Shown here: one piece after another, positions 47,113 to 57,897 of the stretch
Layout of the letters: each line of letters starts with the position of its first letter
Numbering within the stretch: position 1 is the stretch's first letter
Origin: Natronococcus sp. A-GB7
GTDB lineage: Archaea; Halobacteriota; Halobacteria; Halobacteriales; Natrialbaceae
Assembly (NCBI RefSeq): GCF_029688865.1
Contig: NZ_JARUKV010000026.1
Location: 1-64,000, forward strand
Length of the DNA: 64,000 nt
Direction of reading: 5' to 3'
Made by a program: the position numbers and the translations under genes
The notes under the pieces: generated by a model
What the model saw: the letters and a program-made list of their open reading frames with translations, nothing else
What the model was told of the DNA's origin: nothing
Databases searched by the model: none

Positions 47113-49053
47113 TTACTCCCGTTCGATCGGACCCCCGGTAAGGGTCGACTCGTCGCCGACGGGACCTGCCCCCTCGTCCTCGGCGATCGCGAACACCGCC
47201 GCGCCGTGGGCAGGGAGCTCCCGCTCGAGCGGTTCGGCCGGAAGCCGTTCGCCGCGAACGCCGTCCCAGAGGACGAGCGAGTCAGTATCCTGCGCGCTCG
47301 TCGCGTACTCGGCGGGATCGAACGCGATCGTCCGGGGCGCGTCGGCCCAGTTGAAGACCGCGACCGTCGGCGCGCCGTCGCCGGGTCGTTCGCAGACGAC
47401 CCGATCCGGGAACTCGGTGCGGTCGAGCCCCTCGACGACGCCCGTCGAGACGGGCGGCAGCGAGCGCTCGAGCAGTCGCCGTCCCTCCGCGTCGATCTCG
47501 GCGATTCGGTCCGAGAAGACGTTGACGCCCCCGGTCGTCGCGACGAGTGCGGCGAACGCCTCCCGCTCGGCGCGGGTCAGATCGCTGGTCGCCCTGACGA
47601 GCTGGCAGTCGGGATCGTTCACCCACCAGCGGCGGTGGAGCACCTGGCGGTTGAGCGTGTTTCGGACCGCGTTCTTCAGCGCCGGCTGGCTCGCGGCCTC
47701 GTCCTCGGTCTCCCAGACCGGATCGGTGTCGGGTCCGATCCGCATCGCGTCGACCAGCCCGACGCTCGGGGCCAGGGGCGCGCCGCAGCCGAGCACGAGG
47801 ACGTCGTCGCCGACCGTCTCGTCGACGATCTCGAGGCCGCGACGGTAGGCCTCGAACCGGGTCGCGTCCGGGTCGTGGCGCTCGCCTGGAAGCGCCGCCG
47901 CGAAGAGGAAGTCGAGCTTGAGATACGAGAAGCCCCAGTCGTCAACGACGGTCGCGAACGTCTCCCGAAGCCACTCCTGTACCTCGGGGTGAGTCGTGTC
48001 GAGGCCGTAGAGCTGCGATCCCGCGCGGAACCCGCCGTCGACTGGCTCGCCGACCCCGTCGTCCGCGGTTCCGGGTTCCGCCACGAACCAGTCGGGGTGG
48101 TCCTGGTAGAGCGCGGCGTCCCGCTCGACGTAGAAGGGCGCGAGCCAGAGGCCCGGCCTGTATCCCGCCGTCTCGACGTCGTCCGCGAGGGCGGCTATGT
48201 CGGAGAAGCCGTCGTCGATCGAGCGCCAGTCGCCGAACGCCTCCATGTAGCCGTCGTCCAGCTGGACGATATCCACTGGAATGCCCCACTCCCGGAGCTC
48301 CTCGAGGTTCTCGCGGACGTCCGCCTCGGTGACGTCGGTGAAGTAGTGGTACCACGAGCACCAGCCGGTCGGCACCGACTCGGGGACGCGAGCGTCCATC
48401 TCCTCGCCGATCAGGTCGGCGAGCGCCGCCAGCCCCTCGCGGAGGTCGCGGCTCGCGTCCACCCACAGGGTCGGCACCTCGAGCGTCGAGCCGGGCTCGA
48501 GGGACATCCCCTCGAACGGACAGACCGCAGCAACGTCGTGAACGCCGTCGGCGTCGTCGACGATATCGAACCGGGTGCAGAACCGGTCGTGCTCGAGAAA
48601 CCCCATTGTGAGCGCCCGTTCGTCCTCGACGAACCCGGCGAGGTAGCTGCTCGTCCGTCGATCATCCGGGGCGGCGGGATCGAGCATCATCGGCGCGTTG
48701 TCCGGGTTCTCGGCGGGAAAACGCTCGCCGACCGGGAGCGTCGCCGTCGGCGACCACGACTGGTAGCCGTGGCGGTAGAGCCGGGCGTCCGAACCGAAGG
48801 TTGACTCCAGGGAGAGCGTGAGCCGATCGAGCGACGCCGTCGCCTCGCCGTCGTTGGTGATCGAAACCGAGAGGGCGATCCCCTCGGCTCGCTCTGTCGC
48901 CGAGGCGTCGCTCAGCTCGAGTCCTGTCGATCCGTTCGTCGCCGCGACATCGAGACGCCCCGAGAGCAGCTCGCCGTTCGCGTCGGCGACCGAAACCGAG
49001 CCGTCGTCGAGACCGTACCGTACCCTGGTTTCGCCGACCGATAACTCGTCCAT
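47113..49053 (-). CDS. Alpha-galactosidase (GH36)
   Basis: A 646-residue glycoside hydrolase. The N-terminal beta-supersandwich (1-215) leads to a TIM barrel: PTGWCSWYHYFTDVTEADVRENL, IVQLDDGYMEAFGDW, SYLKLDFLFAAALPGERHD with the nucleophile D381, and DAMRIGPDTDPVW with the likely acid/base D442. The C-terminal sheet ends it. No signal peptide, so it acts on imported alpha-galactosides such as melibiose or raffinose, releasing galactose. It is divergent from bgaH with 74 bp between them; GATATATTC (49076-49084) gives a minus-strand TATA box 25-30 nt before the ATG. Confidence 0.9.
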   Translation of the reverse strand: MDELSVGETRVRYGLDDGSVSVADANGELLSGRLDVAATNGSTGLELSDASATERAEGIALSVSITNDGEATASLDRLTLSLESTFGSDARLYRHGYQSWSPTATLPVGERFPAENPDNAPMMLDPAAPDDRRTSSYLAGFVEDERALTMGFLEHDRFCTRFDIVDDADGVHDVAAVCPFEGMSLEPGSTLEVPTLWVDASRDLREGLAALADLIGEEMDARVPESVPTGWCSWYHYFTDVTEADVRENLEELREWGIPVDIVQLDDGYMEAFGDWRSIDDGFSDIAALADDVETAGYRPGLWLAPFYVERDAALYQDHPDWFVAEPGTADDGVGEPVDGGFRAGSQLYGLDTTHPEVQEWLRETFATVVDDWGFSYLKLDFLFAAALPGERHDPDATRFEAYRRGLEIVDETVGDDVLVLGCGAPLAPSVGLVDAMRIGPDTDPVWETEDEAASQPALKNAVRNTLNRQVLHRRWWVNDPDCQLVRATSDLTRAEREAFAALVATTGGVNVFSDRIAEIDAEGRRLLERSLPPVSTGVVEGLDRTEFPDRVVCERPGDGAPTVAVFNWADAPRTIAFDPAEYATSAQDTDSLVLWDGVRGERLPAEPLERELPAHGAAVFAIAEDEGAGPVGDESTLTGGPIERE

Positions 49054-49073
49054 AGCGACGAGTCGAACCGGCG

Positions 49074-49107
49074 TCAGATATATTCTCCCATGGCAACGCT
49101 TAGGTGG
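49074..49107. promoter_or_regulatory. Divergent promoters of the alpha- and beta-galactosidase genes
   Basis: GATATATTC (49076-49084) reads as GAATATATC on the minus strand, 23-31 nt before the alpha-galactosidase ATG. CGCTTAGG (about 49098-49105) is 23-30 nt before the bgaH ATG on the plus strand. Both fit leaderless transcription from a single 74-bp control region. Confidence 0.5.
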
Positions 49108-49127
49108 CGGCCCCGTGACCTGCGCGT

Positions 49128-51152
49128 ATGCGTACTGGTGTCTGTTACTTTCCGGAGCACTGGCCTCGAGAGCGGTGGGAGGACGACGTCGAACGGATGG
49201 CCGAGGCCGGTCTCGAGTACGTCCGCATGGCCGAGTTCTCGTGGGCCGTCCTCGAGTCCGAGCGCGGCGCGTTCGACTTCGAGTGGCTCGACGGGGCGGT
49301 CGAACTGATCGGCGACCACGGGATGCAGGCGGTACTCTGTACGCCGACGGCGACGCCGCCGAAGTGGCTAGTCGACGAACGACCCGAAATTCTACAGGAG
49401 GACCCGGACGGAACGGTTCGGGAGCACGGGAGCCGCCGCCATTACTGTTTCAACTCCGCGGCTTACCGGGAGGAGACCGAACGGATCGTCACGACGATGG
49501 CGAGTCGGTACGCCGACAACCCCTACGTCGCGGGCTGGCAGACCGACAACGAGTTCGGCTGTCATCACACCGTCCGCTGTTACTGCGACGACTGCGCCGC
49601 CGCGTTCCGGGAGTGGCTCGCCGAGAAGTACGGCTCGATCGCGGCGCTCAACGAGGCCTGGGGGACGACCTTTTGGAGCCAGCGGTACACGAGCTTTGAG
49701 GAGGTCGATCCACCGGGACCGACGCCCGCCGAACACCACCCGTCGCGGCTGCTCGACTACGCCCGGTTTTCGAGCGACTCCGTCGTCGACTACAACCGCC
49801 TGCAGGTCGATCTTCTCAGGGAGGTGAACCCCGACTGGTTCGTTACCCACAACTTCATGGGTCGGTTCCCGACCCTCGACGCCTACGCCGTCAGCGAGGA
49901 CCTCGATCTGGTCTCGTGGGACTCGTACCCGACGGGGTTCGTCCAAGACCGACTCGAGGGCGAGCCGACCCCCGACCAGCTGCGGGCGGGCGATCCCGAC
50001 CAGCTCGGGATGGACCACGACCTCTACCGGAGCGCACTGGATCGGCCGTTCTGGGTAATGGAACAGCAGCCAGGCGACGTCAACTGGCCGCCTCACTGTC
50101 CCCAGCCCGGCGAGGGCGCGATGCGTCTCTGGGCCCATCACGCGACCGCCCACGGCGCCGACGCCGTGTTGTACTTCAGGTGGCGGCGCTGTCTCGAGGG
50201 CCAGGAACAGTACCACGCCGGACTGCTGAAACAGGACGGGTCACCGGATCGGGGATACGAGGACGCGTCGCAGGCGGCCGACGACCTGGCGGCCCTCGAC
50301 GACGCCGACGGCGTCGACGCGTCCGTCGCCCTCCTGTTCGACTACGACAACCTCTGGGCGCTCGACGAGCAGCCCCACGCCCCTGACTTCGACTACTGGA
50401 GCCTGCTCGACGCCTTCTACGGGGCGCTCCGCGCTCGAGGGGTGCAGGTCGACGTCGTGCACCCGACGACCGCCCTCTCCGGGTACGACGCCGTCGTCGC
50501 GCCGGCACTGCACCTAGTTACCGACGGGCTCGCGAAGCGACTGACGGACTACGTCGAGACGGGCGGCGAACTCCTCCTCGGCCCGCGGACGGGAGTCAAA
50601 GACGAGTACAACAAACTTCGGCCCGCCCCGCAGCCGGGACCGCTCGCGGATCTCGTCGGTGCGACCGTCGATCAACACGAGTCCCTGCCCCCGCAAGTCG
50701 AGACCCGCGTGCGCCGCGTCGACGGCGACGAGACGTACGCGTTCCGCACCTGGGCCGAGTGGCTCGAGGCCGACGCGGCGACCCCGCTGCTCGAGTACGA
50801 CACCGACGGGATCGAAGCGGGTCGGATGGCGGCCGTCGAGAACGACGTCCGCGAGGGCAGGGTCGTCTACTGTGGCGTCTGGCCGGGCGCCGACCTGGCC
50901 GACGCGCTCGTCGCCCCGCTGCTCGACCGTGCCGGCGTTCCGTCCTGCGATCGGCTCCCCGAGGGGCTCCGGGTCGGCCAGCGCGGCGACTACACGTGGG
51001 TGACGAACTTCTCGAGCGATCGGTTCGGGCTCAAGGTTGACGCGAACGTCGAGTGGCCGGTCGGCGAGAGAACCGTCGGCGCCTACGACGTCGCGGTCGC
51101 AGACGAACGGATCGTCGACGAACTCTCGGTTGAACGGATCGACCAGCAGTAG
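49128..51152 (+). CDS. bgaH: Beta-galactosidase (GH42, haloarchaeal BgaH type)
   Basis: A 674-residue GH42 enzyme that I recognise as the haloarchaeal BgaH family. VCYFPEHWPRERWEDDVERMAEAGLEYVRMAEFSWA opens the barrel; acid/base E142 is in GWQTDNEFGCH and nucleophile E312 in FWVMEQQPGDVNWPP, positions close to those known for Haloferax BgaH. The trimer-type zinc cysteines are in CYCDDC. A beta-galactosidase trimerisation-like domain (about 390-590) and a short beta domain end it. No signal peptide: cytoplasmic hydrolysis of beta-galactosides. It is divergent from the alpha-galactosidase gene and part of the galactose cluster. Confidence 0.95.
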   Translation: MRTGVCYFPEHWPRERWEDDVERMAEAGLEYVRMAEFSWAVLESERGAFDFEWLDGAVELIGDHGMQAVLCTPTATPPKWLVDERPEILQEDPDGTVREHGSRRHYCFNSAAYREETERIVTTMASRYADNPYVAGWQTDNEFGCHHTVRCYCDDCAAAFREWLAEKYGSIAALNEAWGTTFWSQRYTSFEEVDPPGPTPAEHHPSRLLDYARFSSDSVVDYNRLQVDLLREVNPDWFVTHNFMGRFPTLDAYAVSEDLDLVSWDSYPTGFVQDRLEGEPTPDQLRAGDPDQLGMDHDLYRSALDRPFWVMEQQPGDVNWPPHCPQPGEGAMRLWAHHATAHGADAVLYFRWRRCLEGQEQYHAGLLKQDGSPDRGYEDASQAADDLAALDDADGVDASVALLFDYDNLWALDEQPHAPDFDYWSLLDAFYGALRARGVQVDVVHPTTALSGYDAVVAPALHLVTDGLAKRLTDYVETGGELLLGPRTGVKDEYNKLRPAPQPGPLADLVGATVDQHESLPPQVETRVRRVDGDETYAFRTWAEWLEADAATPLLEYDTDGIEAGRMAAVENDVREGRVVYCGVWPGADLADALVAPLLDRAGVPSCDRLPEGLRVGQRGDYTWVTNFSSDRFGLKVDANVEWPVGERTVGAYDVAVADERIVDELSVERIDQQ

Positions 51153-51545
51153 GTGGGCCGCACTCGTTCGTTCACCACAGATGCTGAACGTGAGTCAGTC
51201 GGATCGGCACGTACAGATGAACACGTCCTTTTTTCGGTATCGGGATTCCGCGTGGTTCGAGAGACCTTCGGTCTCTCGTTATCGAGCGAAACCTTCGGTT
51301 TCGCGGACCTCGCGAATTCTGTCGAGACGTTGTCCTGCTGACCTCGCGGGAGTTTCGCTCCCGCTTAGCTTCGATTCGCTCAGTCACGAAAGACGGCAGC
51401 GCCGTCTCGAACGACTTCGCGCGGAACCACTCGCGCAAAAATATATGTTAAAAAGCCGTTCGCTTCCGATTATCGCTCGCGGGTGCTACGCTTGCTACTC
51501 TCCTGCGGTGGTACCGCCTCCGCCTGTGTGTACCACTCACGACTG
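51153..51545. other. Intergenic region with five hairpins and an AT-rich element
   Basis: Perfect stem-loops: CGAGAGACC-TTC-GGTCTCTCG (51258-51278), GCGAAACC-TTC-GGTTTCGC (51286-51304), GCGGGAG-TTTCG-CTCCCGC (51346-51364), AGACGGC-AGC-GCCGTCT (51391-51407) and GTGGTAC with a 15-nt loop and GTACCAC (51508-51536). Between the fourth and fifth lies AAAATATATGTTAAAAAG (about 51437-51454). On the minus strand this offers U-tracts that could terminate the isomerase transcript, or a TATA element for a leftward RNA through the hairpins. No gene is seen. Confidence 0.6.
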
Positions 51546-52289
51546 CTACAGTCGGTCCATCAGGAACGCCGCGCCGTGCTCGAGCGACGCGGCGGGGTCG
51601 TCGGGGTCGTCGTGCTCGTAGACGAGCCACTCGGCGCCGGCGTCCGCGGCGGCCTCGACGCAGGCCTGCACGTCGAGGTCGCCCTCGCCGAGTTCGGCGA
51701 ACGTTGGCTCCGCCCCGCCGACGTTCATATCCTTCAGATGGACCGTCCGGACTCGTCCCTCGAGTTCGCGGAGGCGCTGGGCGGGGTCGTCGCCGGCCGC
51801 GAGTGCCCAGCCGACGTCGAGTTCGATTCCGACGTCCGTTGCCTCGAGGAAGCGCTCGAAGGCCCGCTCGTCGCCGAGGTCGGCATACTCGTGGTCGTGG
51901 TTGTGGTAGGACAGTGTCCAGCCCTCGTCGGCGAGTTCGGCCGCCAGTCCGTCGAGTCGCGCCGCGGTCTCGTCGACAGTCGCCGCGGATTCGAACTGCT
52001 CGGGATCGAGCCAGGGGACGACGACGCCGTCAACCTCGAGTGGTGCGTAGGCCTCGCGGACGGTTTCGAGGTCGTCCTCGAGGGTCTCGACGCCGACGTG
52101 GGGTGGCGCGACCTCGAGTCCGCACGCCTCGAGCGTTTCGGCGAGTTCGTCGGGATCGGCGTGCAACGGCGAGTCCTCGCCGGCGAACTGCACGCCGTCG
52201 TAGCCCGCGTCGGCGACGCGCTCTATGACCTCGATCGTCGACGCGTCGAGTTCGCGAACGCTGTAGAGGTTGATGGCGGTCTTCGGCAT
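51546..52289 (-). CDS. Sugar phosphate isomerase/epimerase (xylose isomerase-like TIM barrel)
   Basis: A 247-residue member of the AP-endonuclease-2/xylose-isomerase-like barrel family. Metal-site features are LSYHNHDHEYAD (His), GIELDVGWALAAGDDP (Asp), TVHLKDMNVGG (His/Lys) and WLVYEHDDPDD (terminal Glu). It probably isomerises or epimerises a sugar or sugar acid. The start MPKTAINLYSVRELDAS at 52289 is the family start; four extra upstream residues are possible. It lies 66 nt downstream of the galactonate dehydratase gene on the same strand, so it belongs to the galactose operon. Its exact substrate is unknown. Confidence 0.85.
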   Translation of the reverse strand: MPKTAINLYSVRELDASTIEVIERVADAGYDGVQFAGEDSPLHADPDELAETLEACGLEVAPPHVGVETLEDDLETVREAYAPLEVDGVVVPWLDPEQFESAATVDETAARLDGLAAELADEGWTLSYHNHDHEYADLGDERAFERFLEATDVGIELDVGWALAAGDDPAQRLRELEGRVRTVHLKDMNVGGAEPTFAELGEGDLDVQACVEAAADAGAEWLVYEHDDPDDPAASLEHGAAFLMDRL

Positions 52290-52355
52290 GGGTCGTCCCA
52301 CTCGCCCCTGCGGTAATGGACTACCGGTTTCGGAAACGCGATCCTGATCCCGACG

Positions 52356-53504
52356 CTACCACTCGGCGACGCTACCGTCGTCGTGGCGCCAGATCGGGTT
52401 GTGCCAGTCGACGCCGCCGGTCTGATCGCGGACGTAGTCCTCGTCGATTTCGATCCCCAGCCCGGGGCCGTCGGGGAGGTCGACGTAGCCGTCACGATAC
52501 TCGAAGACGGAGGGATCGGCGAGGTAGTCGAGCACGTCGCTGGTCTCGTTGTAGTGGATGTCGAGGCTCTGCTCCTGAATCAGCGTGTTCGGCGAGCAGG
52601 CGTCGACCTGGATGCAGGAGGCCAGCGCGATCGGTCCGAGCGGGCAGTGGGGCGCCACTGAGACGTCGTAGGCTTCGGCCATCGCAGCGATCTTTTTGAC
52701 TTCGGTGATTCCGCCTGCGTGAGAAAGGTCGGGCTGGATTACGTCTACAGCGTTCGACTCGAAGATCTCCTTGAAATCCCACCGAGAGTACATCCGCTCG
52801 CCGGTTGCGATCGGAATCGTCGTCGCCGCCCGAATGTCCGGCAGCGCATCGTTGTGTTCGGGCAATACGGGTTCCTCGATGAACATCGGGTCGTACGGCT
52901 CGAGTGCCTTCGCCAGCCGGCGGGCCATCGGCTTCGAGACGCGGCCGTGGAAGTCGACGCCGATATCGACCTCGCCGCCGACGGCTTCCCGGACGGCAGC
53001 GATGCGGTCGACGGCCTCCTCGACGACTCGCGGGTTGTCGACGGAGCGAAGTTCGGACGTCGCGTTCATTTTCAGTGCGCTGAACCCGGCCTCGACCTTC
53101 TCGCGAGCCGCGTCCCCGACGTCCCGCGGGCGGTCCCCGCCGATCCACTGGTAAACCCGGATTCGGTTACGTGCCTTTCCGCCGAGCAGTTCGTACACCG
53201 GCGCGTCGAAGCGTTTACCCTTGATGTCCCACAGCGCCTGGTCGACGCCAGCGATGGCCGACATGAGAACCGGGCCACCGCGGTAGAAGCCGCCGCGGTA
53301 CATCGCCTGCCAGTGGTCCTCGATCGCGCTCGGATCCTCGCCGAGCAGGTAGTTGTCGAGCAGTTCCTCGACCGCCGTTCGGACCGTCTTCGCGCGGCCT
53401 TCGACGACCGGTTCTCCCCAGCCGACGGTACCGTCGCTCGTCGTGAGCTTCAAGAATAGCCATCGCGGCGGGACTTCGAACAGTTCGTAGTCAGTGATTC
53501 GCAT
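52356..53504 (-). CDS. dgoD: D-galactonate dehydratase (enolase superfamily)
   Basis: A 382-residue enzyme, the same length as E. coli DgoD and very similar throughout: PPRWLFLKLTTSDGTVGWGEPVVEGRAKTV, YRGGFYRGGPVLMSAIAGVDQALWDIKGK and DVSVAPHCPLGPIALASCIQVDACSPNTLIQEQS. Mg2+ ligands are D184, E210 and E236; general acid/base histidines H186 and H286. Reaction: D-galactonate to 2-keto-3-deoxy-galactonate, a De Ley-Doudoroff step. Its start is 1 nt from the stop of the ABC ATPase gene, so it is in that operon. Some relatives use other sugar acids. Confidence 0.93.
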   Translation of the reverse strand: MRITDYELFEVPPRWLFLKLTTSDGTVGWGEPVVEGRAKTVRTAVEELLDNYLLGEDPSAIEDHWQAMYRGGFYRGGPVLMSAIAGVDQALWDIKGKRFDAPVYELLGGKARNRIRVYQWIGGDRPRDVGDAAREKVEAGFSALKMNATSELRSVDNPRVVEEAVDRIAAVREAVGGEVDIGVDFHGRVSKPMARRLAKALEPYDPMFIEEPVLPEHNDALPDIRAATTIPIATGERMYSRWDFKEIFESNAVDVIQPDLSHAGGITEVKKIAAMAEAYDVSVAPHCPLGPIALASCIQVDACSPNTLIQEQSLDIHYNETSDVLDYLADPSVFEYRDGYVDLPDGPGLGIEIDEDYVRDQTGGVDWHNPIWRHDDGSVAEW

Positions 53505-53505
53505 A

Positions 53506-54627
<1,122 letters not shown>

Positions 54628-54648
54628 CTGTGTTTTCCTAATATCGTG

Positions 54649-55485
54649 TTACTCTTTGAGCGATCCCGCGAGGATCCCGCTGACGAACTGCTTCTGGAGC
54701 ACCAGAAACAGGATCGCCATCGGGATGATCGCGAGGGTGGTCGCGACCATGATCTGGTCGTAGTAGATCCGTTGGGTTCCCTCGAGACCGGCGAGCGCCA
54801 CCGGGATGGTGTAGTTGCCCGGGTCCTCGAGGATGACCAGCGGGTAGAGAAACAGGTCCCACTGGAACAGAAAGAGGATGATCGCGAGCGCGGCCAGCGA
54901 CGAGCGCATGGCCGGCAAGGCGATGCGGTAGAAGATCTGTAGCTCCGAGGCGCCGTCCATCCGCGCGGACTCGAGGAGGGCGTCGGGGATCGAGCGCATG
55001 TTCTGGCGCATGAGGAAGATACCGATCGGGTTCGCGAGCCACGGGAGGATGATCGCCCGGAACGTGTCGGTCCAGCCCACCTGCGACATCATCAGGAACA
55101 GCGGGATAACGAGCAACTGGATCGGCAGGACGAGCGTCGCCAGAATCGAATAGAACAGCGGTTCCTTGAACCGGAACTCGTACTTCGCGAACGCGAAGCC
55201 GGCCATCGAGCACAGCAGCAGCGACAGCACGGTGTAGACGACCGCGATAAAAACGCTGTTCCAGATCGTCAGCACGTAGTTCATCCGCTCTTGCAGGGCA
55301 GCGAAGTTATCGAGAAACGCCGTCCCCGGGATGAGGCGGGGCGGGAACTCGATGAACTCCTGCTGTGGCAGGGTCGCGGCCACGATCATCCAGTACAGCG
55401 GGATGAGCATGACGACGACCATCGTAAGGATGAACGCGTACGTGAGGAACATCCAGACGGCGTCCTTGCGGCGTTGCTCGCGCAT
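54649..55485 (-). CDS. Sugar ABC transporter permease (MalG-like)
   Basis: A 278-residue inner-membrane permease of the MalG/UgpE type with six predicted helices. The first is AVWMFLTYAFILTMVVVMLIPLYWMIVAATLP; the EAA loop that docks on the ATPase reads ESARMDGASELQIFYRIALPAMRSSLAALAI. Its ATG overlaps the stop of the upstream permease by 1 nt (TGATG), so the two are translationally coupled. Substrate by context: galactosides or galactonate. Confidence 0.93.
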   Translation of the reverse strand: MREQRRKDAVWMFLTYAFILTMVVVMLIPLYWMIVAATLPQQEFIEFPPRLIPGTAFLDNFAALQERMNYVLTIWNSVFIAVVYTVLSLLLCSMAGFAFAKYEFRFKEPLFYSILATLVLPIQLLVIPLFLMMSQVGWTDTFRAIILPWLANPIGIFLMRQNMRSIPDALLESARMDGASELQIFYRIALPAMRSSLAALAIILFLFQWDLFLYPLVILEDPGNYTIPVALAGLEGTQRIYYDQIMVATTLAIIPMAILFLVLQKQFVSGILAGSLKE

Positions 55486-56507
55486 CAGTCGTCACCTCCG
55501 ATCCGGATCTGGGCGATCGAGATGACGCTGACGAGGGCGACGAAGATCACCGTGAGCGCGCTCGCGTAGCCGAGGTTCCAGTGGACGAACGCCTGCCGGT
55601 AGATGTACTGGACGATGGTGATCGTGGCGTTCGTCGGGCCGCCGCCGGTGATAACGTAGGGCTCCGCGAACAGCTTGAACGTCCCGATCGTCGAGAGCAC
55701 GACGACGAACAGCAACACGGGACGAAGCTGTGGCAGCGTCACGTACCGGAACTTCTCCCAGCGACCGGCGCCGTCGATCTCGGCGGCCTCGTACAGCTGC
55801 TGGGGAACGTTCTGTAAGCCCGCCAGCAGGATGATCATGTTGTATCCGATCCACCGCCAAGTGACCGCGGCGATGATCGTCTTGCGGGCCCAGAACTCGC
55901 TGGTGAGCCAGGCGATCGGACTGACGCCGACCTGGCTCAGCAGGTAGTTGACGAAGCCGAACTGCTCGTTGAACAGCAACAGGAACACCGTCGAGTAGGC
56001 GACGATGTTCGCCGAGATAGGCAGGGCGATCGCCGTCCGGAACAGCCCCTTGAACCGGACGAAGGAGGCGTTCAACGCGACCGCGAGGGCGAGCGCCAGC
56101 CCGATCATGATCGGCACCTGGATCAGCAGGATGTAGGTCGTGTTGAACATCGACTGCCAGAACAGCCCGTCGCCGAGCAGTCGCGTGTAGTTCGACAGGC
56201 CGACGAACTGGAGTTCGGCGATCCGGGGAACCGTGACGTGGAACGGGCCGAAGTCAATCCAGAAGAGGTTCCCCTGACCGACCGACTGCCACTCAAAAAA
56301 CGAGAGATACAGCGTGTAGACGACCGGGAACGCGAGGAACAGTCCGAACAGGACGAAAAACGGAGACACCAGCAGGTAGGCGATCCGTTGTCCGCGAAGT
56401 GGGGGTAGCTTCGCGGCGACGTCCTGCCGAGCGAAGCGAAGTCGATCGAGGACCGACGGATCGGGGTTCGCAATCGGGTTCCCGGTCGATTCGGTTTCCT
56501 GAGACAT
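55485..56507 (-). CDS. Sugar ABC transporter permease (MalF/UgpA-like)
   Basis: A 340-residue permease of the MalF/UgpA type. A soluble N-terminus of about 40 residues precedes the first helix (IAYLLVSPFFVLFGLFLAFPVVYTLYLSFFEW). An extracellular loop follows, then the core helices and the EAA loop EAAEIDGAGRWEKFRYVTLPQLRPVLLFVVV. It pairs with the MalG-like permease encoded next. The gene starts 12 nt after the stop of the binding-protein gene. Confidence 0.93.
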   Translation of the reverse strand: MSQETESTGNPIANPDPSVLDRLRFARQDVAAKLPPLRGQRIAYLLVSPFFVLFGLFLAFPVVYTLYLSFFEWQSVGQGNLFWIDFGPFHVTVPRIAELQFVGLSNYTRLLGDGLFWQSMFNTTYILLIQVPIMIGLALALAVALNASFVRFKGLFRTAIALPISANIVAYSTVFLLLFNEQFGFVNYLLSQVGVSPIAWLTSEFWARKTIIAAVTWRWIGYNMIILLAGLQNVPQQLYEAAEIDGAGRWEKFRYVTLPQLRPVLLFVVVLSTIGTFKLFAEPYVITGGGPTNATITIVQYIYRQAFVHWNLGYASALTVIFVALVSVISIAQIRIGGDD

Positions 56508-56519
56508 CTTTCGCGGTCC

Positions 56520-57851
56520 TCAGGCCAGGTCCCGTCCCGTGTTGCCGGCGACGGTCTCAGCCGCCGCCTGAACGGCCTCCTCCGGCGTCTGGTCGTCCCG
56601 GAGCATCCGCTGGAACTCGTCGTTAATCGCCTCGCTGACTTCCGGCGTGTCCTCGGTAAACCGGTAGCTCGGGAGCTCCTCGGCGACCTCGGCGAAGACC
56701 TCTCGAGCCGCCTGCCCGCCGAAGAACTCCAGCTCCTCGCCGAAGATATCTGCGTCGTACGTCGTCTCGAGGGCCGGGAAGAGCCCGTACTCGTCGTACA
56801 TGAGCAGTTGCATCTCCTCGGTCGCGGTCGTCCACCGGATGTAGTCCCAGGCGCGGCTGGTCTCCGCGCTCTCGTGTTGGTCCGGGATCATCAGGCTCGA
56901 GCCGCCCCAGTTCGACGCACGTGCGCCGCCCTCCTCGAACGCCGGGATCTTGTAGACGCCCCAGTCGCCCTCGGTTTCCGGCAGCTCCGCGCGGAGCGTT
57001 CCCTCCATCCAGGCCGCCGAGGGAAGCGACGCGATGTCGCCGTCGCCGTACGCCCCGAACCAGGCCGACGACCAGCCCTCGAGGTTCGACGCGATCCCGG
57101 CGTCGTGGAGGTCCTTGATATTCTGAGCGACCTGCAGGGACGCCTCCGAGTGGATGTTCACCGCGCCGTCCTCCGTGAACGGCTCGCCCTCGAGCTGTCG
57201 GAACTGGAACCGCCAGAACCCGTCGAGGTCGTTCTCCGGCAGGTTCACCATGTAGACGTCGTCCGGCAGCTGTTCTCCCTGCTCGATGAAGTCGTCCCAG
57301 GTCTCGATCGCGTCGGCGTCGAGACCGTGTTCGTCGTAGACGTCGGTGCGATAGAACACCGCAGTCGGGCCGATATCCCACGGGAGCGCGTAGATATCGT
57401 CCCCGTCCGTGAGCGATTCCCAGACGCCCGAGACGAAGTCGTCGTAGACGTCTGCCTCCTCGATCCGGTCCGTGATATCTAGCACGGCCCCGGTATCGAT
57501 GTAGCTCGGGCCGTCGATCATCTCGAGCATCGAGACCTCCGGTGTGCCCGAGCCCGACGCGAGACGCGTCTGGAGATCTTCCTTCATCGCGTCCTGGCCG
57601 AACTCTTCGATCTCGACCGAGGCATCGTGTTCGTCGTTGTACTCTTCGGCGGTCAGCTCCATCGAGCGAGCCGCAACGTCCCATCCCCAGCCGGAGATTT
57701 CGTCGGCCATCTCGTCGGTCTCGGCCTCATCGTCGTCCCCTTCGGGATCGCCGGTACCGATACAGCCCGCCAGTGCGGCCGCACCGAGCGCGGTGGTTCC
57801 CTTCAGCAGTCGACGTCGCCCGAACCGTCCGTATGTGGTATCTTGTGACAT
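56520..57851 (-). CDS. Sugar ABC transporter substrate-binding lipoprotein
   Basis: A 443-residue extracellular solute-binding protein (family 1). The N-terminus FGRRRLLKGTTALGAAALAGCIGTG is a TAT lipoprotein signal with lipobox LAGC, followed by a short acidic linker. The mature domains include ISGWGWDVAARSMELTAEEYNDEH and IYALPWDIGPTAVFYRTDVYDEHGLD, typical of MalE-type proteins for oligosaccharides. The start MSQDTTYGRFGRRR (57851) fits; the longer frame lacks a sensible signal. First gene of the transport operon; a minus-strand TATA-like GGTTTAAGTTA lies 35-46 nt upstream. Confidence 0.93.
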   Translation of the reverse strand: MSQDTTYGRFGRRRLLKGTTALGAAALAGCIGTGDPEGDDDEAETDEMADEISGWGWDVAARSMELTAEEYNDEHDASVEIEEFGQDAMKEDLQTRLASGSGTPEVSMLEMIDGPSYIDTGAVLDITDRIEEADVYDDFVSGVWESLTDGDDIYALPWDIGPTAVFYRTDVYDEHGLDADAIETWDDFIEQGEQLPDDVYMVNLPENDLDGFWRFQFRQLEGEPFTEDGAVNIHSEASLQVAQNIKDLHDAGIASNLEGWSSAWFGAYGDGDIASLPSAAWMEGTLRAELPETEGDWGVYKIPAFEEGGARASNWGGSSLMIPDQHESAETSRAWDYIRWTTATEEMQLLMYDEYGLFPALETTYDADIFGEELEFFGGQAAREVFAEVAEELPSYRFTEDTPEVSEAINDEFQRMLRDDQTPEEAVQAAAETVAGNTGRDLA

Positions 57852-57884
57852 GCGCACACCGAGTATTCCAGACACAGTAACGGT

Positions 57885-57897
57885 CATAACTTAAACC
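57885..57897 (-). promoter_or_regulatory. TATA box of the sugar transport operon
   Basis: GGTTTAAGTTATG on the minus strand, 34-46 nt before the binding-protein ATG. A second strong TATA-like TTTATATAG (57970-57978) lies further upstream and is readable on both strands. Confidence 0.45.

Follow-up and report, generated by a model that had tools for sequence, protein, structure and literature searches.

Hairpins between bgaH and an isomerase-like gene of Natronococcus sp. A-GB7 as a probable small mobile element nested in another dispersed repeat

Introduction

What is a dense array of hairpins doing in a 393-nt spacer between two convergent genes? In the window, by which we mean the whole stretch of 64,000 nucleotides of Natronococcus sp. 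A-GB7 analyzed here, the spacer 51153-51545 separates bgaH from a gene resembling xylose isomerases (Table 1). An earlier note on this DNA had seen in the spacer five perfect hairpins around an AT-rich element, for which it offered three readings: a structured RNA, a remnant of a mobile element, or a transcription barrier between the two genes. The surrounding positions 47113-57887 hold a probable galactose-use cluster, with the GH42 beta-galactosidase, a melibiase-like hydrolase and a galactonate dehydratase (NF010624); ABC transporter genes were recognized in this cluster by eye from the list of open reading frames. We argue that the array is very probably a small non-coding mobile element, here called B, that landed in the hairpin loop of a different dispersed repeat, here called A.

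Results

The spacer holds two nested repeats

The five hairpins are real. Counting stems of at least seven perfect pairs, we find four hairpins of 7-9 bp when loops are limited to 3-8 nt (mean 0.14 and maximum 2 in 1000 dinucleotide shuffles) and five, the last with a 15-nt loop, when loops of 3-15 nt are admitted (mean 0.31, maximum 3); none of the 1000 shuffles matches the observed number under either limit. Of 686 sliding segments of 279 nt taken along the 64 kb, just two contain four hairpins, both of them lying over the array, and the fold of the whole spacer has z = -3.23 on the plus strand and -3.52 on the minus strand. The CC-TTC-GG core reported for the first two hairpins is indeed common to H1 and H2, and the AT-rich stretch is confirmed at 51436-51457. 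Open reading frames of 88 and 194 aa run across the spacer.

The spacer has many partial matches in its own genome and in all nine genomes of the genus, so that the search for copies elsewhere, which the earlier note had proposed, is answered in the affirmative. As an exact 14-mer, CGAGAGACCTTCGG is met a single time in the genome because stem letters differ between copies while pairing is kept, and a search for the exact unit, finding this one occurrence, was discarded as a test for copies. The partial matches fall into two sets, of which one (positions 30-100 and 263-386 of the query) defines A and the other (101-262) defines B. At one locus (L007) homologues of query positions 30-100 and 263-375 abut directly, which gives A without B: the hairpin of A reads CCGCGCTTCGCGCGG there, and CCGCG, B, CTTCGCGCGG in the window. 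By this comparison B interrupts A inside its hairpin loop. The first four hairpins belong to B, whereas the AT-rich stretch and the fifth stem belong to A, and the idea of the array as one unit is thus good for the first four hairpins and not for the fifth.

Table 1. Features of the spacer and its two flanking genes (positions in the window).
Feature	Positions	Strand	Details
bgaH, GH42 beta-galactosidase	49128-51152	+	PF02449, E 7.3e-153
Repeat A, left part	51182-51252	+	ends in hairpin arm GGATTCCGCG (51243-51252)
Element B, long form	51253-51414	+	162 nt, TGGTTCG ... CGAACGA; first four hairpins; BLAST, covariance model, empty sites
H1 of B	51258-51278	+	9 bp, loop 3 (TTC); perfect stem
H2 of B, first of inner pair	51286-51304	+	8 bp, loop 3; perfect stem
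Hairpin nested in apex of inner hairpin H3 (long forms)	51346-51364	+	7 bp, loop 5
H4 of B, stem core	51391-51407	+	7 bp, loop 3; perfect stem
Repeat A, right part	51415-51538	+	begins with hairpin arm CTTCGCGCGGAACC
AT-rich core of A	51436-51457	-	motif GGCTTTTTANNNNAGATTTTTG, one mismatch here
Fifth stem, in right part of A, outside B	51508-51536	+	7 bp, 15-nt loop
Xylose-isomerase-like TIM-barrel gene, convergent with bgaH	51546-52301	-	PF01261, E 6.8e-17

Repeat A and the convergent genes

The right part of A recurs at 14 other places in the genome, with 75-82% identity over 91-121 nt, and at three shorter ones with 85-93%. Its AT-rich core has 25 genomic matches at up to three mismatches, against 1 for the reversed control; two of these, with 2-3 mismatches, may be due to chance, and we put the genomic copies of A at about 23-25. 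The exact core was met in 52 named records, namely 11 of Natronococcus, 12 of other haloarchaea and 29 of unrelated bacteria, the last probably by chance.

Could these repeats end or block transcription between bgaH and the isomerase gene, as the earlier note had supposed? A carries T-rich tracts on both strands, and among the 21 of 25 core matches that were placed between two genes, using a simple codon-score gene caller, 12 lie between convergent genes, 7 between tandem and 2 between divergent ones, with the left-hand gene pointing towards the core in 17 of the 21. The convergent bias has P 0.0002 if the reference is the proportion of gene pairs in the window that are convergent (10/50), yet P 0.07 if it is the proportion of intergenic bases (39%); leaving out the two weakest matches (10/19 convergent) gives P 0.0016 by pairs and 0.16 by intergenic length. 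A as a mark of convergent genes was rejected, the bias not being significant by intergenic length. The barrier reading also fares badly in a terminator scan, which gave 0 sites and disposes of an intrinsic terminator, and in the isomerase loci of congeners that do include a bgaH match (G004, G006 and G008 in our numbering), where neither A nor B was found. A terminator or barrier between the two genes is, on this evidence, improbable. For bgaH and the isomerase gene we predict that the inserted repeats probably have no effect, or a mild one at the 3' end.

Form and distribution of element B

We collected 90 loci of B, corresponding to 88 distinct places, since two were the other strand of places already counted; excluding 11 without clear ends left 77 places, and excluding nine that were mis-bounded or interrupted left 68 bounded copies. 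Among these, B starts with TGGTTCG in 57 and ends with CGAACGA in 44, two sequences that are inverted with one mismatch in 7, and the base that follows is C in 64. There are three size classes: 25 copies of 54-60 nt, 34 of 94-115 nt and nine of 137-205 nt. The shortest copies consist of two hairpins, mostly linked by TCATCA (a link that follows 32 of the 60 H1 stems scored among all bounded copies), the middle ones have a second hairpin pair between the outer two, and the long ones have further hairpins, which the window copy carries inside its third hairpin. Read outwards, the hairpin feet are mostly TGAT or TGAC, with TSG at the outer end, and the loops are mostly of 3 nt. The inner pair exists in both orientations (L207 versus L211, L217, L221, L231 and L233).

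A pattern search of the loci for the inner pair outside B gave 34 matches, 18 of them after a B arm, one elsewhere (L333) and 15 in neither position. The one elsewhere is a lone 54-nt two-hairpin unit resembling the inner pair, at CAACC^TTTTAC on the minus strand of G000:C76 (around 2015-2068), and it is missing at the matching place in congeners G001 and G008; as a single case, from the own genome, it is too little to claim independent mobility of the inner pair. Two-hairpin units of other sequence (GTCGTTCGAAACGGC...GTGATGCCAAAAATC...) were also seen at L284, L219, L332 and L335, some of them near the orthologous class E site described below.

A first covariance model, built from 12 copies, finds B in all nine genus genomes, own included. 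A second, from 31 copies, finds it with E up to 1e-10 in at least 83 of the 121 family genomes sampled and in at least 22 of 29 genera, own genus included; BLAST adds partial matches on plasmids of seven named haloarchaea from seven genera. Their copies establish both A and B, on sequence grounds, as dispersed repeats. One copy of B (L043) lies between two tRNA genes (1291-1361 and 1671-1741) with equal model scores, and this tRNA is possibly duplicated.

Filled and empty sites

For one insertion site of B, of class E and next to a gene for 272 aa, all nine genomes allow a comparison. The site is filled in four, G003 (113 nt), G005 (115 nt), G007 (60 nt) and G008 (58 nt), and empty in five (G000, G001, G002, G004 and G006). 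In the four filled/empty comparisons at this one orthologous site, with flank identities of 105/110, 97/111, 100/110 and 96/112, B ends at the same base and target duplication is absent. Two of the four (L335/L336 and L331/L332) have T next to the junction in the empty allele and C in the filled one, a difference that may mean the exchange of one target base or a base that is part of B. The guess of a mobile element is in this way supported, by two nested dispersed repeats with both filled and empty orthologous sites for B.

Orthologues of the isomerase gene are present in all nine genomes, own included. At the eight other loci, as fetched, A and B were not found, except for a 31-nt match to B (E 0.004) in L330, and the array in the bgaH/isomerase spacer is for this reason probably a lineage-specific insertion. 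The spacer after the isomerase gene in L330 (G008) contains, by eye and at the place that A and B take up in the window, a piece like the outer end of A (GTTACGTATAGAGCGCACA) together with other repeats; BLAST with A gave no match in that spacer.

Insertion sites of B

The commonest host of B is the near-terminal palindrome of IS200/IS605 elements, which accounts for 30 of the 77 places by a rule applied to both flanks and failed by the other 47. A looser rule on the right flank assigns the 77 to classes P (34), E (8), 'A?' (6) and F (5), with 24 unassigned; relative to it, the both-flank rule drops L208, L224, L244 and L271, and six rows with the left flank only go uncounted. The left hairpin arm of A is present in three of the 77 rows; in congener G008, B sits in the corresponding A hairpin at two places (L236 and L260). 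In the eight rows of class E, palindromes beside genes, B lies at CG^CAG(A/C)...AAAA, several times directly after a gene stop.

The right-end palindrome of tnpB elements, GCCTCGGGG^CTTGACCCCGAGGC, is empty in L172 and L173, with one base changed in L172, and holds B in L016 and L261. Empty palindromes of the IS605 type, at up to three mismatches, number 83 in the nine genomes against 1 for the reversed control, and they flank a tnpA-tnpB pair on both sides at G001:C31:163572 and 165532. In at least nine places, picked by eye among the matches listed, B lies on the 3' side of a TnpB zinc-ribbon match at a distance of 23-185 nt. Outside the genus, the flanks of 16 loci from other genera, classified by eye, were of the IS605 type in three, class E in eight and other in five.

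Around the junction, a perfect 7-nt palindrome occurs in 22 of 68 copies versus 3% in shuffled flanks, and one of six in seven positions in 34 of 68 versus 27%, counts in which copies within one host family are not independent. Many sites of B have no clear hairpin loop. In the rows of the IS605 type the orientation of B is constant, and some copies may therefore have spread with their host.

An origin without any transposase, through template switching in replication and fold-back synthesis at palindromes, would also produce insertions in hairpin loops without target duplication, an inner pair in both orientations and stems that stay paired despite changed letters; the inverted inner pairs and changing stems of B may indeed reflect template switching. 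Against such palindrome growth stand the constant ends and the TCATCA link at dispersed sites, which demand that a defined unit be copied between places, and we hold it to be no more probable than the transcription barrier.

Pairing kept in the stems of B

We examined the stems of B in two alignments, A2 with 24 distinct two-hairpin copies and A3 with 31 of the 34 middle-class copies. Paired cells make up 98.0% in A2 and 94.5% in A3, with covariation scores of 0.562 versus 0.175 shuffled and 0.429 versus 0.184 shuffled, respectively; in both alignments the pairing share and the covariation score were reached by 0 of 500 shuffles, and pairing falls to 30-47% when the partner is shifted by one to three columns. 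Pairs changed on both sides number 10 in A2 (7.9 shuffled; reached by 12 of 500 shuffles) and 21 in A3 (15.7; 0 of 500), whereas further pair types are not above the shuffles (23 versus 23.1 in A2, 44 versus 42.9 in A3). By stem, paired cells amount to 98.6% for H1 in A2 (95.7% for its lower and 85.5% for its upper part in A3), 97.6% for H2 in A3, and 97.4% (A2) and 95.0% (A3) for H4. Arms of the same copy pair in 97.7% versus 79.1% when arms are swapped between copies for H1 (60 of 68 copies scored), and in 95.8% versus 66.5% for H4 (63 of 68), a comparison that favours own arms because the best hairpin per copy was picked beforehand.

The stems of B vary in their letters and stay paired. Neither a lack of copies elsewhere nor unconserved stems, which the earlier note had named among the outcomes that would refute its reading, was found. 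What the covariation shows is the retention of the hairpins; it does not show a role as RNA, since the same signal would come from a DNA hairpin needed for movement or from the correction of palindromes in replication.

The reading as a conserved structured non-coding RNA that is repeated by chance, for instance a regulatory one or one belonging to an omega-RNA, can claim this strong covariation in H1-H4 and the at least nine places of B after TnpB zinc-ribbon matches, where omega-RNAs lie. It can also claim RF02657 (sot2652), which matches two of eight tnpB or palindrome loci searched, with scores below gathering; in L302 the match stops 24 nt short of the empty palindrome, and in L308 it crosses the palindrome. 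What tells against an RNA is that stem letters, number of hairpins, orientation of the inner pair and position are all variable, that it was not found at any of the eight other orthologous isomerase loci, and that Rfam over 50900-51800 returned three matches up to E 5, the best with E 0.36 and none near its gathering score. On the Rfam result and the copies with variable hairpin number, a unique structured RNA was rejected. Of the earlier guess of a structured RNA the covariation survives, yet it is equally expected of a DNA hairpin that serves mobility, and the guess is left without an Rfam match near gathering score; we judge it somewhat less probable still than the barrier or palindrome growth.

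Discussion

Known systems of the same kind

We suggest that the nearest relatives of B in kind are the SMR-A elements of Haloquadratum walsbyi, HqIRS42, HqIRS43 and HqIRS55. In the sections of the source on which we draw (PMC3119063), these are described as non-coding elements of about 110 bp with inverted ends unrelated to known transposons and without target duplication, inserted in the near-terminal palindromes of PATE/IS605 elements; they are proposed to inactivate IS605 elements, their mobilization is called "enigmatic", and the three are said to have no mutual sequence similarity. B is like them, within the limits of that description, in the length of its 94-115-nt class (the other classes being additional), in its inverted terminal repeats with one mismatch in 7, in the absence of target duplication in four comparisons at one orthologous site, and in its insertion in near-terminal palindromes of PATE/IS605 elements at 30 of 77 places. 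Unlike them, again as described there, it also has a two-hairpin form of 54-60 nt and longer nested forms, and it also enters palindromes beside genes. We infer that B may be a Natrialbaceae counterpart of SMR-A, a likeness drawn from described features. The SMR-A kind is hence already known, and what is new here is the two-hairpin core, the nested growth, the covariation and the insertion in the right-end hairpin of tnpB; in the open-licence PMC literature we found neither such elements of Natronococcus nor their nesting described.

The palindrome-associated transposable elements (PATEs) of Haloquadratum are, in the same sections (PMC3119063), related to IS605, carry near-terminal palindromes, go down to 52 bp in a form described for ISHwa23, and are said to be without terminal inverted repeats. 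Their likes, with ends of the IS605 type, are hosts of B. A fused empty form of about 53 nt, much like that 52-bp form as it is described, was seen in five of 20 empty-palindrome loci read (L307, L309 with the loop inverted, L310, L317 and L319). A itself, by eye, shares the start TACAGGCGGAG with such IS605-type/PATE ends and has the palindrome, and several of its copies, unlike PATEs as described there, carry inverted outer sequences (GTTACGTA...TACGTAAC). The right-end hairpin is a named feature of haloarchaeal omega-RNAs or sotRNAs in the portion of PMC12558985 used here; in tnpB elements this hairpin is one of the places where B inserts, and the B of the window differs from these RNAs (RF02656, RF02657) in having no Rfam match near gathering score.

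Least probable of all is that B belongs to the REPIN/BIME-type elements moved by RAYT: like REPINs (see also PMC3116915) and CGTC/GTAG REP dimers, which are short inverted hairpin pairs, intergenic and in some bacterial cases located in palindromes (PMC3733652), B in its minimal form consists of two short hairpins in inverted arrangement, whose short feet are conserved, but an unpaired GTAG/CGTC tag is missing at its 5' foot, where TGAT or TGAC prevail, its loops, mostly of 3 nt, differ in length, and an association with a RAYT gene is not seen, since none of the 12 Y1 loci scanned has B-like ends on both sides.

How B may move

We posit that B carries no enzyme for its movement and is mobilized in trans, with a folded single strand of DNA as the most likely form: cut at the hairpin feet, this strand would be joined into a target hairpin at its single-stranded loop. 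Insertion in palindromes, the lack of duplication and the hairpin ends all fit single-strand transposition in trans of the IS200/IS605 type. Peel-and-paste movement is the mode of the IS200/IS605 TnpA, and that class of enzyme is a possible mover of B, which we put forward tentatively. The Y1 family (PF01797) has 12 matches in seven of the nine genomes, and a pattern scan of these 12 loci revealed none whose Y1 gene has a B-like end at each side, so that it tied no transposase to B. It did find a B-like hairpin end in L294, on a contig that has a B behind tnpB as well (L253), while a further end, in L295, is doubtful. G005, which is a MAG, and G008, both with B, gave no Y1 match, which speaks against the need for a present-day resident enzyme of the Y1 family.

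A bolder and rather doubtful extension is that B units are self-similar two-hairpin DNA units that recognize the shape of their target, a hairpin loop, and not its sequence. Recognition of shape together with insertion as folded single strands would lead the units to insert into each other, like Russian dolls, and, the right-end hairpin of tnpB being a preferred target, to remodel the ends of TnpB guide RNAs, which they may switch off. If this were true, it would provide a simple route to nested palindromes in genomes and would reveal parasites linked to the omega-RNA ends of TnpB. The B family offers material for testing how elements of the SMR-A kind move: its ends are near-exact, its minimal form has 54-60 nt, its copies in cultured genera run to dozens, one orthologous site has alleles that are naturally filled or empty, and the genomes that carry B also have defined empty targets. 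As a place for a small mobile element the spacer is ordinary; as an example of an ill-understood kind it is well resolved.

Other contents and neighbours of repeat A

The apex of A's hairpin holds hairpin modules other than B at L009, L010, L014 and L015, and in some copies of A the inverted repeats continue, by eye, in sequence outside A. No autonomous partner of A was found among the loci, the sole candidate being L085. There and in L088 (G000:C56:78059-79563) a 342-aa open reading frame, Orc1/Cdc6-like by eye, lies between two short stretches that match A's outer sequence (TACGTAACGAATC...). In L080 (G000:C8:56809-56880), a short A core is flanked by two similar coding stretches, each ending in a stop.
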